30,032 nucleotides of DNA, taken from the IMG/VR virus record IMGVR_UViG_3300009551_000099, positions 1 through 30,032 of that record; one strand, given 5' to 3'. The notes beneath the pieces are model-generated. The model was not told the DNA's origin. It saw nothing but the letters and a program-made list of their open reading frames with translations, and searched no databases. Made by a program: the position numbers and the translations under genes. Shown here in pieces: positions 3,729-20,902 of this stretch (position 1 is the first letter of the stretch; every line of letters starts with the position of its first letter). The stretch comes from a virus.

Positions 3729-6700
3729 TACACATCTGCCTTATTAAGTGTAGTCTGTATCAAAAGTGCTTGGCAAACTGTCGGCGGCTCGACTGTGCTG
3801 GGATCAGTTGAAAATTGCAAACTGAAGCTGCGGCCTCGTTTTCCAATGTTAGCGATATTAGTTTGTGCTTGATAATCTGTGGTCAGAAAAGCTGGGTTAG
3901 CTGTACCACCGCCTCGTGGGAGAGATATATCCTGTGCAGGGGCATTACTCATTGCCGAGAATGCTCCAAATACAAAATCTCCCGATTCATAGTCTGCGCT
4001 TACAGAAACATCCAGAGTTCCTATTCCAAGAGATTGTCCGTGCAAACGAACTTTTCGCGGATTATCTATCTGGAATGGATTATCAAAGAAGTTGTGGGTT
4101 GTGGTAAACCACCCACGAATAGGATTAGGGCCGAAACCCCATCCCCTATCAATTTCCCACACATAATTGGCATAGTCTGTAATAACTGTGCCACGACCCA
4201 TCAAGGGGTTGTATATAGAAAAATGATTTCTATCTCTTCCGTTTGAATCGATCCAATAACTATTAGCCAAAGGAATAGCTACGGACGTTTCATTATCTGG
4301 GTTTATGTTATTGGTGTAGTTGAAATTAACTTGCTGAATAGTAAATACTGGATCTTGATTCTGTCCCATGAGAGTCATGGTCAGATAATACCCATCAGCA
4401 AACCAAAGTCGATATTGGTTCTTACTACGAATAGTTGTGGCAAATAAAGGACCGCGAGAAGTAGTTAAAAAGCTTCCTGCCTGAGTATTGATTGGCTGGG
4501 GAGTTCCAGTAAGGCGCGGCAAAAGCCACGAAGTTATATTAGCCGAAAGCCTACTTCCCAAGAAATTGCCATAAGTATTGCTCTGATCGAAGGTACTAAT
4601 GCCCTTATAAGATGCATAAATGGGCTTACTATTACCACCATCAACGACCGTATATTCGATAGCACCCTCATAAGGATTAAGCACACTCATAGAGAAATTC
4701 GTAGGATCTGTTCCATTAAGTGCTTGGATTGAACCTCTACAAAAGATGCCCAAAGTCGTACCACTCATGCGTAGCAATCCCGTAATAGGATCTCCTGTGC
4801 TAAGATCGACTGCTCCATCCACACCACTAAAGTCTTCTGGAAGTCCAGTAGCAGATACTTCCAAATCTCCTGATTTAAAGCCTAGAGCGAGCTGAAAATT
4901 ATGAAAGGCCAAGTGCCTAGGGATATCCAAAGAATCTGTCGGATTTGTGTAGATATACCTAAAATAGAATGAATCGTATGTAAATGCTCGTCCTGCTCCT
5001 GAACATCCATATATAGCCTCCCATTCAGTATTTCCGTAAAAATCCGCCTCAATAAATTCATACTGAGATGATGCTGCTTGTATCTTGCTAAAAGATGGAA
5101 GTCCAGCGTAAGACATATTCCCAGAAACATTCGCAATATGCGAACCCGTTCCTAGAGGAGCCGTCCAAATCTGATCTCCACCTTGTATGTAGTTTCTAGT
5201 TGCTCCGCCATCTGGAGTGACGTTAGCTATCTGAATATATCCAGCAGCATCATTAGTAGAGAAATCTCCACTAGCAATACTATAAGTAGTTATGGTGCCT
5301 TTTACATCATCTATACCATTGTAAAAGTAGTACACGCTAGAAGTGGTTTGATAGTAAATTCTAATCTTAACAACATCTAAGCCGATGATAGCGCTATTTA
5401 CATTGCCCGATATGGCAAAAGTTACTCCAAATCCAGAATTTTGAAGATCAGATGCCGTTACAGCAGTAAGACCCCAGAGATCATTAGATCCGCCAAGAGT
5501 AAAGGTCTGGCTGTGGGCTGAAGTATAGTAAGTAGAAGCCCCAGAATCCCACTCACTTAGTACTGGAGTATTCTTAGTAGAACTTCCGGTCAAGTTCAAA
5601 GTGGCATTAAATTTAGGAACTTGGCTCAGAGTGCCGTTCGATGCTGCATAATTTACGTGCGCTCCGGATGCCATAGTTTGCCCGGAAAAGCCTCTATCAT
5701 TGGCGATTGTACAAACTATATGGCCCGAACTCGTTCCAGTAACTAATACCGTAATGGTGTGTGTGCCATCAGTGATATCTAGCAATTTGCCATTAAGACC
5801 ACTAATACCAGATACTGCTATGCTTTCTCCAGTAGTACCAGTAGAAGCTATTGTATATCCAGAGGTAGTAGTTACTTTAGGAGTATTAAAGGCAGATATA
5901 GATAGCTCAATGCCTGTAACAAGCGTGTCTACAGGAAGATCCGCAAATGCAAAATCGCTCAGAGTTAGAGCTGCTACACTACCGCTGTTACTAAAGGAGC
6001 TGATGTAGTCCCCATCATTCTGCGTCTGGACATTGGCGGGAAAAGATGCAGCCGGATTATTTAGCCACTGAGTGCTATTGGGCGCAGAGTCTACTAGATT
6101 GCCGCTAGCAAAGCTAGCAAAGGCATATGACGTAGGAGTTATAGATGCTGGGGCAGGATTGGATTCTCTACCTACCTTAGTAAAGGGGCCATTACTAGTT
6201 CCGCCAGAATATTGTGTAATCCACCCAAGATCGACTTCCCACCAGCCTGTTTGCAAGGTATTTGGAGAAGCAGCCGTACTAGAGGCTTGCTCTGGCCCAT
6301 AGGAGCGATGCATGGTTGCTTTATCTGTGGCTGGGATTATTGCCGCGCCTAGGTTATTAGTAGGATCGCAGCATAACGTGCCAATAGAAGCGCTAGTTCC
6401 TATGTGTACATAGAAATGCGATGCCAAATGCAAATTATTTTGATTAGCGATAGAACCATCTATATTTGAATACAAAATTTTACCAGCAGCATCGCCAGTA
6501 GTCCAATCTCCACTAATAAGCGTGATCTCTCGAACTACGTAAGAAGGGGCTATATTAGTACTAATAGTGCTAAGATAGTCTCCCGGATGAATTTGATACA
6601 CGCCATTATTAAATAATATGCTAGCACAATCCACTACTTCATATTCTTGGTTTTTAAACCCAGTAAGTCCTATAGCAGGATTATAGTAGATAGTATTAGA

Positions 6701-9273: not shown

Positions 9274-9858
9274 TTACGGCGCGTTGCCGTTGTACGTGTA
9301 CACGACCGCCTTTTCCGTGGTCTTGGTGCCGAGCAAGTTAGACGAACTAACTCCCGTGACGCCATCAACCCAGTTATCGGGATACGCATACTGGTACTTA
9401 ATACGAAGAGTGACCTTGCGATCACCAGTCGTATAAGCGGTACCCGGAGAGCCATCCAGAGTCAGGAGCACGGTCTGAGCCGAGGTCTGAACCGGGAACG
9501 GATTGATAGCGAAGCCGCCCGAAGACGCCTTATCACCACCAACCGCCGCGACAGTCTTTGCACCAGTCGTGTTAGTCTGGAGCGCAGTACTAGCCGCGAG
9601 CAAGCTCGCCGTACTAGCGGTAATTCCAAGTTTGCCGGTCATTGCTGCCGTACCATTGGAATCAAACTGATCGAGATTGAGTTCAAATTCAGTAATTTCA
9701 ACCGAATCGCCGATCTTGCAGAACTTGATAACGTCGCCCGAGGCAAGCGCAGTGCCCGCCGGAATAGTGACTGTTACAGTCAACTCTTCGGCAGCATTCT
9801 GGCCAGCAGGACGATAATTTGCGTTATCGTTAAATTGCTTGGAAACGTAAGTAGCCAT
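9274..9858 (-). CDS. Probable capsid decoration / minor head protein (194 aa)
   Basis: This small beta-rich protein begins MATYVSKQFNDNANYRPAGQ and is dominated by T, A, V and G, with few charges and one cysteine (around residue 47). It directly follows the major capsid gene, 23 bases downstream, with a strong AGGAG before ATG 9858. Phages with N4-gp56-type capsids often carry a beta-rich protein of about this size here, and a decoration or cement role on the capsid surface is the likely reading. The hairpin at 9204-9233 follows it. It is structural with good confidence; the exact role is inferred. Confidence 0.82.
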   Translation of the reverse strand: MATYVSKQFNDNANYRPAGQNAAEELTVTVTIPAGTALASGDVIKFCKIGDSVEITEFELNLDQFDSNGTAAMTGKLGITASTASLLAASTALQTNTTGAKTVAAVGGDKASSGGFAINPFPVQTSAQTVLLTLDGSPGTAYTTGDRKVTLRIKYQYAYPDNWVDGVTGVSSSNLLGTKTTEKAVVYTYNGNAP

Positions 9859-19179: not shown

Positions 19180-19740
19180 TTAGAGAGAGGTCGGGTAGCT
19201 TCCACCATTACGAACTTCCACGCAGCTCATCCATGAACCTCTAAGAATAGAAGTATTAGAGGCGTTAGAAGTATTCTGACAGAACGTAAAGTTAATCGTG
19301 TCATCAGCTTCCGGCTGGAAGAATGCATCCACAGTAATACTCGAGTATGCCACTGCCGAGCTAAAGAGATCAGCATTAAGGCTTGTATAAGCAAGGGTTA
19401 CTCCAGCAACGTTAGCCGTGCCTTGGGTAGCAAGGGCTTTACCGACAAACGTAGTGGCTGACGTGGTACACGCTGGAGCAGCGAGCTGAATCTCAAGGCC
19501 CGGAGTAGCTCCGGTCGAGATCATAAGACGCGCTCTGACGTGATACATCTTACCTTTCTGGACCGAGAACTTAAGCTCGGGTTCCGGGGTAAGGGTAGTG
19601 CTAGCATTAACCGTGGTATCCGCTACAACCTTGACAAGGCCGTACTGGTGACGGAAAGACTTAAGAAAGATCTGCTTCAACTGAGTAGTCAAGTGTGAAG
19701 CGTTGTTAATCATGTTTGAAAGGCTAGTTGTTGCAGCCAT
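19180..19740 (-). CDS. Virion / fibre-type protein with shared N-terminal motif (186 aa)
   Basis: The start ATG 19740 has GAGGAG nearby. Residues 1-35 (MAATTSLSNMINNASHLTTQ, then LKQIFLKSFRHQYG) share the INNAxHxTxxxKxxxLKxF pattern with the gene at 17706-18515. The rest is beta-rich (LKFSVQKGKMYHVRARLMIS, GLEIQLAAPACTTSATTFVG, SSITVDAFFQPEADDTINFT) and compact, like a jelly-roll or trimeric head domain, with a C-terminus containing LRGSWMSCVEVRN. I infer a virion surface protein anchored by the same N-terminus as the other fibre-like protein. It is the first sizeable gene after the tRNA-like RNA. Confidence 0.8.
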   Translation of the reverse strand: MAATTSLSNMINNASHLTTQLKQIFLKSFRHQYGLVKVVADTTVNASTTLTPEPELKFSVQKGKMYHVRARLMISTGATPGLEIQLAAPACTTSATTFVGKALATQGTANVAGVTLAYTSLNADLFSSAVAYSSITVDAFFQPEADDTINFTFCQNTSNASNTSILRGSWMSCVEVRNGGSYPTSL

Positions 19741-19762
19741 TTTGGTATCTCCTCAACTTTAT

Positions 19763-19796
19763 AGATAAAAGACCCGGCTGTATCAACTAACCGGAT
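19763..19796 (-). terminator. Weak intrinsic-terminator-like hairpin upstream of fibre-type gene
   Basis: The minus strand reads CCGGTT, a nine-base loop and AGCCGG, pairing with one G-U, followed by GTCTTTTATC. It would end or attenuate a transcript carrying the upstream tRNA-like RNA before the gene at 19740. The stem is short, so efficiency is probably partial. Confidence 0.4.
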
Positions 19797-19804
19797 AGAA
19801 TAGG

Positions 19805-19836
19805 TAGCAGGGCTTTATATCTGCCGAGTCCTGCTA
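19805..19836 (-). promoter_or_regulatory. Hairpin downstream of the tRNA-like RNA
   Basis: TAGCAGG and CCTGCTA pair perfectly (seven base pairs) around an 18-base loop, in which a second GGC/GCC pairing can form. It lies between the tRNA-like element and the terminator-like hairpin, in untranslated sequence. It may protect or mark the 3' end of the tRNA-like RNA for processing; this is inference. Confidence 0.4.
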
Positions 19837-19848
19837 GGAACGGCGCTT

Positions 19849-19948
19849 TATCTGGTGTGAGATTTGCACTTCACACTAAGCCAGTTCTACGGGGTTAGCC
19901 GCTGGCTTGCCTTTCGACTTTCGCGTCTACTAGTTCCGCCAACCAGAT
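19849..19948 (-). ncRNA. tRNA-Leu-like RNA without recognisable anticodon arm (100 nt)
   Basis: Read on the minus strand, ATCTGGT at the 5' end pairs perfectly with ACCAGAT at the 3' end (seven-pair acceptor), then a discriminator A73 follows as in tRNA-Leu. After TG at positions 8-9 the D arm GCGGAACTAGTAGACGC matches the E. coli tRNA-Leu D arm at 14 of 17 positions, including A14, G19 and A21. The T arm is GTGAG/CTCAC with one bulged A and a seven-base loop TGCAAAT. Between D and T arms no five-pair/seven-loop anticodon arm forms; instead there is a seven-pair stem AAGCCAG/CTGGCTT. No CCA is encoded. It could be a degenerate tRNA, a tRNA mimic or a recombination remnant. Confidence 0.5.
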
Positions 19949-19959
19949 AATTCTTTTTG

Positions 19960-20190
19960 TTACGCGCTCGGAGCGCTAACCGCCGGAGGCGGATCAACAG
20001 CCGCTACGGCTGCCTTAAGAGCATCGCTCTGGGCTTGAATAGAAGCAGCAACTGCCTCAAGATCTGCATCGCTAGGAGCACCAGCCGCAGCCGCTACTTC
20101 CGCAGCGAGCTTATTAAGCTCCGCAGCAACAGCCGCTACCTCGCTGGTAAGATCGGCTACACTAGCCTGAATATCGGTAAATCCACTCAT
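19960..20190 (-). CDS. Small alanine-rich coiled-coil protein (76 aa)
   Basis: The start MSGFTDIQASVADLTSEVAA at 20190 is set by AAAGGA about eight bases upstream; an open frame continues upstream to 20271 but has no ribosome site. The product is almost entirely heptad-patterned, with L, V and I at core positions and abundant alanine (ELNKLAAEVAAAAG, then LEAVAASIQAQSDALKAAVA), and ends in a P/A/S tail. Short alanine-rich coiled coils with a similar start are common in phages beside virion genes, where they may trimerise or chaperone. The specific role is unknown. Confidence 0.78.
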   Translation of the reverse strand: MSGFTDIQASVADLTSEVAAVAAELNKLAAEVAAAAGAPSDADLEAVAASIQAQSDALKAAVAAVDPPPAVSAPSA

Positions 20191-20218: not shown

Positions 20219-20416
20219 TCAATTAGGCTTACTAGTAGCCTGTGAGTTGTTCGTTGATCGCAGTAAAACATCTATTTTCCCTTCGATCACTTCTATATCA
20301 GAAGCAGCATCTCTAACCCCGTGCCAATCTTCTATTGTGATGCTTGAGTATATGTATTGGATTAGTACTTTCTTACGCTGTTCTAACTCTTCTATTTTCA
20401 TAAATTCTAGGCACAC
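20219..20416 (-). CDS. Small charged protein (60-65 aa)
   Basis: Two starts are possible: GTG 20416, with AGAAGG four to five bases upstream, or ATG 20401 (MKIEELEQRKKVLIQYIYSS) without a good site. The GTG start is preferred for its ribosome site. The protein is helical and charged (EELEQRKKVLIQY, then VRDAASDIEVIEGKIDVLLR) with a short S/N/T tail. It is the first gene after the 552-base leader and probably starts the main late message. No family was recognised. Confidence 0.65.
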   Translation of the reverse strand: MCLEFMKIEELEQRKKVLIQYIYSSITIEDWHGVRDAASDIEVIEGKIDVLLRSTNNSQATSKPN

Positions 20417-20556
20417 TTGCCCTTCTTCCCTGTGATCCTAGGCTTCGCTTCACTGCTCTTAGCCCCCACGCACTCGATATGGGTTTATATCACGCTGAGT
20501 ACGCAAGCTAACAAACAAGTAACAAACCAGATACAAGTACTTACACGCTCGTATTA

Positions 20557-20585
20557 TCTATAATGGATATACTCACATTACCCAA
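20557..20585 (-). promoter_or_regulatory. Sigma70-like promoter candidate in late leader
   Basis: The minus strand reads TTGGGT, 17 bases, TATAGA. The -10 region lies in a dyad ATTATAGATAAT, so a repressor or activator could overlap it. Genes from 20416 leftwards would be transcribed. Confidence 0.35.
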
Positions 20586-20841
20586 TAACACTAGTCTTTC
20601 ATGTCTCGTTTCCGAGATTCTTACTTAGATCGTGTACCTAAGAAGAACTGATAGTAATCTATCACAGGGGTAGGTCATCAATTGGCACAGATGGCGCCTA
20701 CTCTAAAGCCCCTAGCTAAGACACTAGGCTTGACGCTAAATAAGAAGAGCTGGTGGATACTCCTTGTATCACTTACCTATCCTATCCGAAGATTGGACGA
20801 CCAGCCTACTTCCCGGCTTTAGCGTAGACACTAGAGATACT

Positions 20842-20869
20842 ATAATACCCCTAGCACACACTTAGACAA
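20842..20869 (-). promoter_or_regulatory. Sigma70-like promoter candidate upstream of hairpin leader
   Basis: The minus strand reads TTGTCT, 16 bases, TATTAT, just downstream of the HNH-like gene. A transcript from here would carry the whole hairpin series and then the late genes. Confidence 0.4.
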
Positions 20870-20902
20870 CAAATCTTTAAGAAAGTTCCCGTATTCTCGA
20901 AA

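Follow-up and report, generated by a model that had tools for sequence, protein, structure and literature searches.

The late operon and its intergenic element

The window, by which we mean the whole stretch of 30,032 bases that was analysed, is an IMG/VR virus record; it is possibly a fragment, as the records of its relatives may be. Its late genes, which include family matches to a terminase, a portal-type connector and a major head protein, lie on the minus strand. Within this operon, a gap of 219 nt separates a small ORF from a late gene of 186 amino acids, and the gap contains a 100-nt element (19948–19849, including A73) that is derived from tRNA-Leu and has no anticodon arm. An earlier reading of the locus, made from the letters alone (the sequence-only reading), gave no strand for the element. 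It is on the minus strand, so its orientation is that of the sense strand of the late operon. A stop codon lies 11 nt upstream of the element and the next start codon is 108 nt downstream (Table 1).

Table 1. Features of the late operon around the tRNA-Leu-derived element, listed 5' to 3' along the minus strand.
Feature	Positions	Strand	Basis
Sigma-E/ECF-type promoter-like site, GGAACTTT-N-TGTTGTCTAA, heading the late operon	20862–20889	−	Single occurrence in the window; absent from 100 shuffles
Candidate structured late leader RNA, ~450 nt	20405–20861	−	z = −3.2; covariation versus L034; Rfam: none
Small Ala-rich ORF, 76 amino acids, upstream of the element	19960–20190	−	ORF list and sequence; PHROG: none
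tRNA-Leu-derived, anticodon-less tRNA-like element	19849–19948	−	tRNA-Leu covariance model, 32.2 bits, E = 5.3e-7; shuffles
Acceptor 5' strand, AUCUGGU, pairs with 19850–19856	19942–19948	−	7/7 Watson-Crick
D arm GCGGAACUAGUAGACGC, 3-bp stem, A18 replacing G18	19923–19939	−	19/20 match with flanks; unique in the window
GUC-GAAA-GGC mini-hairpin, in the place of the anticodon arm	19909–19918	−	Pair probability 0.93 when folded alone and 0.87 within 219 nt
Composite arm AAGCCAG...CUGGCUU, 7 bp around CGG/CCG, holding the variable-arm-like GGCUAACCCCGU	19878–19908	−	Pair probability mostly >0.9
T-arm-like hairpin, 5 bp plus one bulged A, loop UGCAAAU, U55 to G	19857–19874	−	Sequence, fold, covariance model
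Acceptor 3' strand, ACCAGAU; A73 at 19849, then AAG; CCA not encoded	19850–19856	−	Sequence, fold
Remaining intergenic stretch: more hairpins, then a GAGGAG ribosome-binding site	19741–19848	−	Fold
Downstream late gene, 186 amino acids	19180–19740	−	Homologue in relative L034, 36% identity

The sequence-only reading placed the element between two virion genes. Both neighbours do belong to the late operon, but their virion identity is unproven, because neither of them matches a PHROG family and the larger one (19180–19740) matches no Pfam family. That reading also saw a hairpin and a terminator-like stem after the element. Further hairpins are indeed predicted in 19741–19848, but a scan for intrinsic terminators on the minus strand, in the region 3' of the element, found none.

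The element derives from a tRNA-Leu

We built a covariance model on 12 tRNA-Leu genes taken from phage records. Its top match in the window is the element, end to end (exactly 19849–19948 on the minus strand, 32.2 bits, E = 5.3e-7). The second-best place in the window scores 11.2 bits. For reference, a genuine phage tRNA-Leu scores 75.5 with this model, and intact tRNAs of other types score about 23–41. In the reverse test, a model of the element alone matches this same genuine phage tRNA-Leu (E = 7.5e-4).

The D arm (TGGCGGAACTAGTAGACGCG) matches a Caulobacter phage tRNA-Leu(CAG) at 19 of 20 positions and an E. coli-type tRNA-Leu(CAG) at 18 of 20. Over the span that was originally compared with E. 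coli-type tRNA-Leu, the match is real, but the count is 15 of 17 instead of 14 of 17. Elsewhere in the window, no site has three or fewer mismatches to the D-arm consensus of tRNA-Leu, and no such site arose in 100 shuffles. The local tRNA-Leu score is 19, versus 9.4 ± 1.35 for shuffled sequences (maximum 18 in 2000 shuffles). If the D arm is given and the flanks are shuffled, the 7-nt acceptor complement appears with P = 0.004 (0.4%), and the complement plus an adjoining T-like hairpin with P = 2e-5. Because of the covariance-model match, the D-arm match, and the shuffles, we conclude that the element descends from a tRNA-Leu; this derivation is well supported. The separate tRNA-Leu model and the shuffles thus agree with the initial description of a tRNA-Leu-like RNA that lacks an anticodon arm. 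We do not class the element as a tRNA: it is a tRNA-derived non-decoding RNA.

Chance resemblance would be an extraordinary coincidence. An exact 18-nt match to the D arm also occurs on an unrelated contig, inside a coding gene, but that match came from a scan of 2.9 million contigs, whereas at the element a sequence match and a fold coincide in one place, which the shuffles disfavour as a product of chance.

Standard tools miss the element because the anticodon arm is gone. The sequence-only reading had proposed checks with ARAGORN and with covariance models. ARAGORN calls no tRNA or tmRNA in the window. Rfam, including its tRNA and tmRNA models, gives nothing at the gathering threshold and no tRNA-like match at E ≤ 10, but the model built from tRNA-Leu does find the element. 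(Weak Rfam matches to NsiR1, CRISPR-DR41, and PART1_3 fell below gathering and were taken as chance.)

Predicted fold

The unconstrained minimum free energy fold recovers the acceptor stem, the D stem, the GUC-GAAA-GGC hairpin, the AAGCCAG/CUGGCUU arm, and the T stem. The claimed seven perfect acceptor pairs and A73 are both there: ATCTGGT/ACCAGAT forms 7/7 Watson-Crick pairs, although pair 7 competes with a sixth T-stem pair (probability 0.27). The first acceptor pair is A1-U72, while all 12 of the 12 aligned tRNA-Leu have G1. The element keeps U8 along with A73, A14, A15, U48, G19, C56, U54, A58, and A20a (numbering assigned from the sequence). The G19-C56 elbow is kept, but G18-U55 is lost on both sides (A18, G55), just as the sequence-only reading stated. 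Its canonical seven-base T loop needs qualification: a 7-nt loop (UGCAAAU) can form, but only if an A of the T stem is bulged out, without which the stem does not reach 5 bp, and with a closing G-C pair of weak probability (0.13).

An anticodon arm with a 7-nt loop and a Leu anticodon is absent. In its place, as originally described, are the seven-pair AAGCCAG stem and a mini-hairpin of three pairs with a GAAA loop of the GNRA type. The new 7-bp helix AAGCCAG/CUGGCUU has P = 0.023 by shuffling. The GGCUAACCCCGU segment in the composite arm resembles the variable arm of tRNA-Leu, with P = 0.056 only. When about 300 nt of context is folded, the helices of the element are retained; in a 600-nt fold, the acceptor and D stems drop to about 0.3. 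The folding energy of the whole element is unremarkable (z = −1.6).

AAGCCAG and CTGGCTT look like the halves of an anticodon arm from tRNA-Leu (CTGGCTTCAGGTGCCAG occurs in real tRNA-Leu(CAG) genes), so we also considered a segment permutation of this arm, in which GCGAAAGTCG would be left over from the variable arm. Segment shuffles gave P = 0.056 for the 3' segment and P = 0.95 and 0.42 for the remaining segments. As the shuffles give no support, we do not claim a rearrangement.

Related phages and the late leader

Relatives were sought by protein-anchored scans: a search with the major capsid protein (MCP) identified three close relatives (L033, L034, and L035, with 78–82% identity of the MCP), and a search with terminase profiles identified 43 loci. 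Neither a copy of the element nor a tRNA-Leu-type D arm is at the expected place in the related phages (L033–L035 and the terminase loci). In these phages, the element's own covariance model has no match, and what the tRNA-Leu model picks up is confined to ordinary tRNAs and weak similarities. Two DNA-pattern scans of IMG/VR (2.9 million viral contigs, with records very near the window not among them) found no homologue, as their single match lies in a coding gene, and a phage blastn search did not find the element either. Because there is no copy in the relatives examined, there is no covariation and no evidence of selection. The sequence-only reading had named lack of conservation and covariation as what would count against it, and the absence of the element from every relative examined does speak in part against its idea of a mimic.

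In L038, the gene that occupies the equivalent position is preceded by a gap (9314–9507) that is structured too (z = −2.0). The sequence of this gap is unrelated to the element, so we do not count it as support. As a separate observation, the gene for the terminase large subunit is split in distant relatives (L005, L006, L007, L014, L017, L019–L024, and L031) by insertions of several hundred bases to more than 1 kb, which suggests introns or homing elements.

Five related phages have the promoter-like site GGAACTTT-N-GTCTAA heading their late operons: the window's phage, L034 (at ~859), L035 (~495), L038 (~7824), and L041 (~5119). The strict promoter pattern occurs in 23 IMG/VR stretches, in some of which it is just upstream of phage tRNA genes (L106, L109, L119, and L122). 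A search for a protein with sigma-70 region 2 in the five records with the promoter found none.

Downstream of the promoter, the leader at 20405–20861 is a candidate for a new large structured leader RNA, and Rfam has no match for it. Its counterpart in L034 is 888–1302. Relative to L034, the hairpin at 20670–20701 has five compensatory pairs around an invariant 10-nt loop, and a 9-bp long-range helix (CCCUGUGAU at 20661–20669 with AUCACAGGG at 20428–20436) is kept in both phages. The leaders of L038 (7824–8250) and L041 (5480–5860) share AAACAGACCTCCGG..CCGGCTTGA and an element TCAAGCCCACC..TCTAGTGA, with a predicted pairing of GGCTTGA with TCAAGCC and some compensatory changes. Also, a AAGAAGGGCAA-TG--CC stretch is conserved before the next gene (20409–20436 on the minus strand of the window, 1274–1301 in L034, and ~8633 in L038); it may belong to the leader RNA or encode the last residues of a tiny peptide (KKGKC).

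The late leader of L041 contains intact genes for tRNA-Pro(TGG) and tRNA-Trp(CCA) (5311–5467), about 160 nt and 245 nt past a promoter of the same type. Therefore, this leader region receives tRNA genes, which suggests that the element in the window is a captured tRNA.

A tentative role in processing late mRNA

Whether the element serves in processing or is a relic is undecided. We narrowly favor processing in cis over a pseudogene: we propose, with a probability of about 0.4, that the element is a relic that is still recognisable by RNase P and that processes or stabilises the late mRNA. The phage would have captured a tRNA-Leu gene into its late operon, and this gene would then have lost its anticodon arm, by a block replacement and an insertion, which would make decoding impossible. 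The acceptor/T coaxial stack and the D arm, which are the parts visible to tRNA-processing enzymes, would have been kept. We infer that transcription most likely runs through the element, which would fold like a tRNA within the late polycistronic transcript and would most likely be cut by host RNase P, and possibly by 3' tRNA nucleases as well. Any selective benefit would most likely be in cis, through the separation and protection of the mRNA for the downstream late gene (19180–19740).

RNase P accepts minimal substrates that consist of an acceptor stem and a T-stem-loop (reviewed in PMC11143913), so cleavage at 19948 is the most direct expectation. This review adds that polycistronic mRNAs and some phage RNAs, among them the P1/P7 C4 precursor, are also cut by RNase P. 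The predicted structure is compatible with cleavage 5' of the acceptor stem.

Our proposal is consistent with the match to the tRNA-Leu model and the reciprocal match of the element's model, with an acceptor stem and adjacent T-like hairpin that are far above chance, and with a fold that is robust in local context. The element is intergenic and its orientation follows the operon; the tRNA genes in the late leader of L041 make capture there natural; and the change to A1-U72, where tRNA-Leu have G1, preserves pairing. However, with the element in none of the relatives examined, selection is not in evidence. Furthermore, the element has neither CCA nor G1-C72, both of which are favoured by bacterial RNase P, its T stem contains a bulged base, and its overall folding energy is ordinary.

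A young pseudogene is almost as likely as a processing element. A captured tRNA-Leu gene would have been inactivated by a single block change in its anticodon region together with a few point mutations, and would now be without function; its stems would still be foldable because it is young. This would explain why the element is not found in relatives, why point changes beyond the anticodon region are few (1/20 in the D arm; U55G and the bulge in the T arm), and why the critical positions G18 and U55 were hit. At low divergence, retained stems are unsurprising (rough estimate, ~0.2), and phages commonly gain and lose tRNAs. A pseudogene would not explain why the gap was filled by a new perfect 7-bp helix (P = 0.023) and a GNRA-type hairpin, or why the change to A1-U72 keeps pairing.

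The sequence-only reading had posed a fork between a decaying tRNA and a deliberate mimic. This fork stands, and mimicry of tRNA-Leu in trans is possible, but it is less likely than processing or a pseudogene. The RNA would be charged or bound by LeuRS or another protein that binds the tRNA elbow, as a decoy or as an amino-acid donor; we consider this improbable. We give equally little weight to a broader version, in which the anticodon-less tRNA-Leu is charged or bound in trans late in infection, by host LeuRS or elbow-binding RNases, and also punctuates the late mRNA. According to the review PMC9976931, E. coli tRNA-Leu can still be leucylated when its anticodon and variable arms are removed, and the determinants include A73 and D/T-loop contacts, so the suggested LeuRS decoy is conceivable. 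The nucleotides listed above, from A73 to A20a, are all present. However, the review lists G18:U55 as important (PMC9976931), and this pair is lost on both sides; also, CCA is not encoded and none of the relatives examined carries the element.

Two other suggestions of the sequence-only reading fared worse. A bait for host (anticodon) nucleases is implausible because the element has no anticodon loop. A tmRNA-like domain is disfavoured: there is no mRNA-like tag domain, the element is 100 nt with a Leu-type D arm, and neither ARAGORN nor Rfam makes a tmRNA call.

We see little chance that the element is akin to the bacterial Y RNA YrlA, whose tRNA-like module binds PNPase or a Ro protein. YrlA has D, T, and acceptor arms without a decoding function and is about 90–150 nt (PMC8394870), but the element has no separate Ro-binding stem beyond the acceptor and no Rfam match. 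A search for TROVE/Ro proteins in the window and four related records (five in all, possibly fragments; a host partner is possible) found none. That the element is an attP-type copy of a host tRNA-Leu, serving integration, is scarcely credible. Phages do integrate at tRNA-Leu, and S-CBP2 has a 39-nt, 92% match to tRNA-Leu 86 nt past its integrase gene. But the element's contiguous near-identity spans only about 20 nt, it is in the middle of an operon, an attP need not fold, and no integrase (PF00589) was found in the window record or four relatives.

Significance and comparison with known systems

Should the element prove to be both processed and retained, it would clearly exemplify the reuse of a captured tRNA by a phage as a structural or processing element, with no decoding role, in its late mRNA. 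It would also show which losses from tRNA-Leu are tolerated, in nature, in recognition by RNase P or LeuRS. If LeuRS or elbow-binding proteins do recognise it, it would be the equivalent, found in nature, of the minimal tRNA-Leu that has been engineered. Even as a plain pseudogene, it would show a phage tRNA in the course of decay. Either way, it illustrates that standard tRNA finders overlook tRNA-derived RNAs without an anticodon arm.

The element shares its acceptor stem, A73, D-arm sequence, T-arm-like hairpin, the order of these parts, and an end-to-end model match with the class II tRNA-Leu of bacteria and phages. It differs from them in that it has no anticodon arm or anticodon, its composite variable arm is rebuilt, and it has A18, G55, a T-stem bulge, and A1-U72. 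The minimal E. coli tRNA-Leu constructs, which lack the anticodon and variable arms (reference 53 of PMC9976931), are likewise anticodon-less with A73, but the element is natural, keeps a long composite arm, has lost G18:U55, and is at most a candidate for charging.

The phage RNAs and mRNA elements that are processed by RNase P (the P1/P7 C4 precursor and polycistronic mRNAs, cited in PMC11143913) also have a tRNA-like fold within a longer phage transcript. Compared to these non-tRNA substrates, the element has a clear tRNA-Leu ancestry, while its processing is putative. YrlA likewise does not decode and has D, T, and acceptor arms of tRNA type, but its sequence is unrelated, and the element has neither a separate Ro-binding stem nor a Ro gene found alongside it. 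Finally, pseudo-tRNA genes, such as the Bacillus cereus pseudo-tRNA that is cited in PMC8007984, likewise yield a tRNA-derived RNA that need not take part in decoding; unlike these, the element is encoded by a phage, has its anticodon arm replaced, and lies within an mRNA operon.
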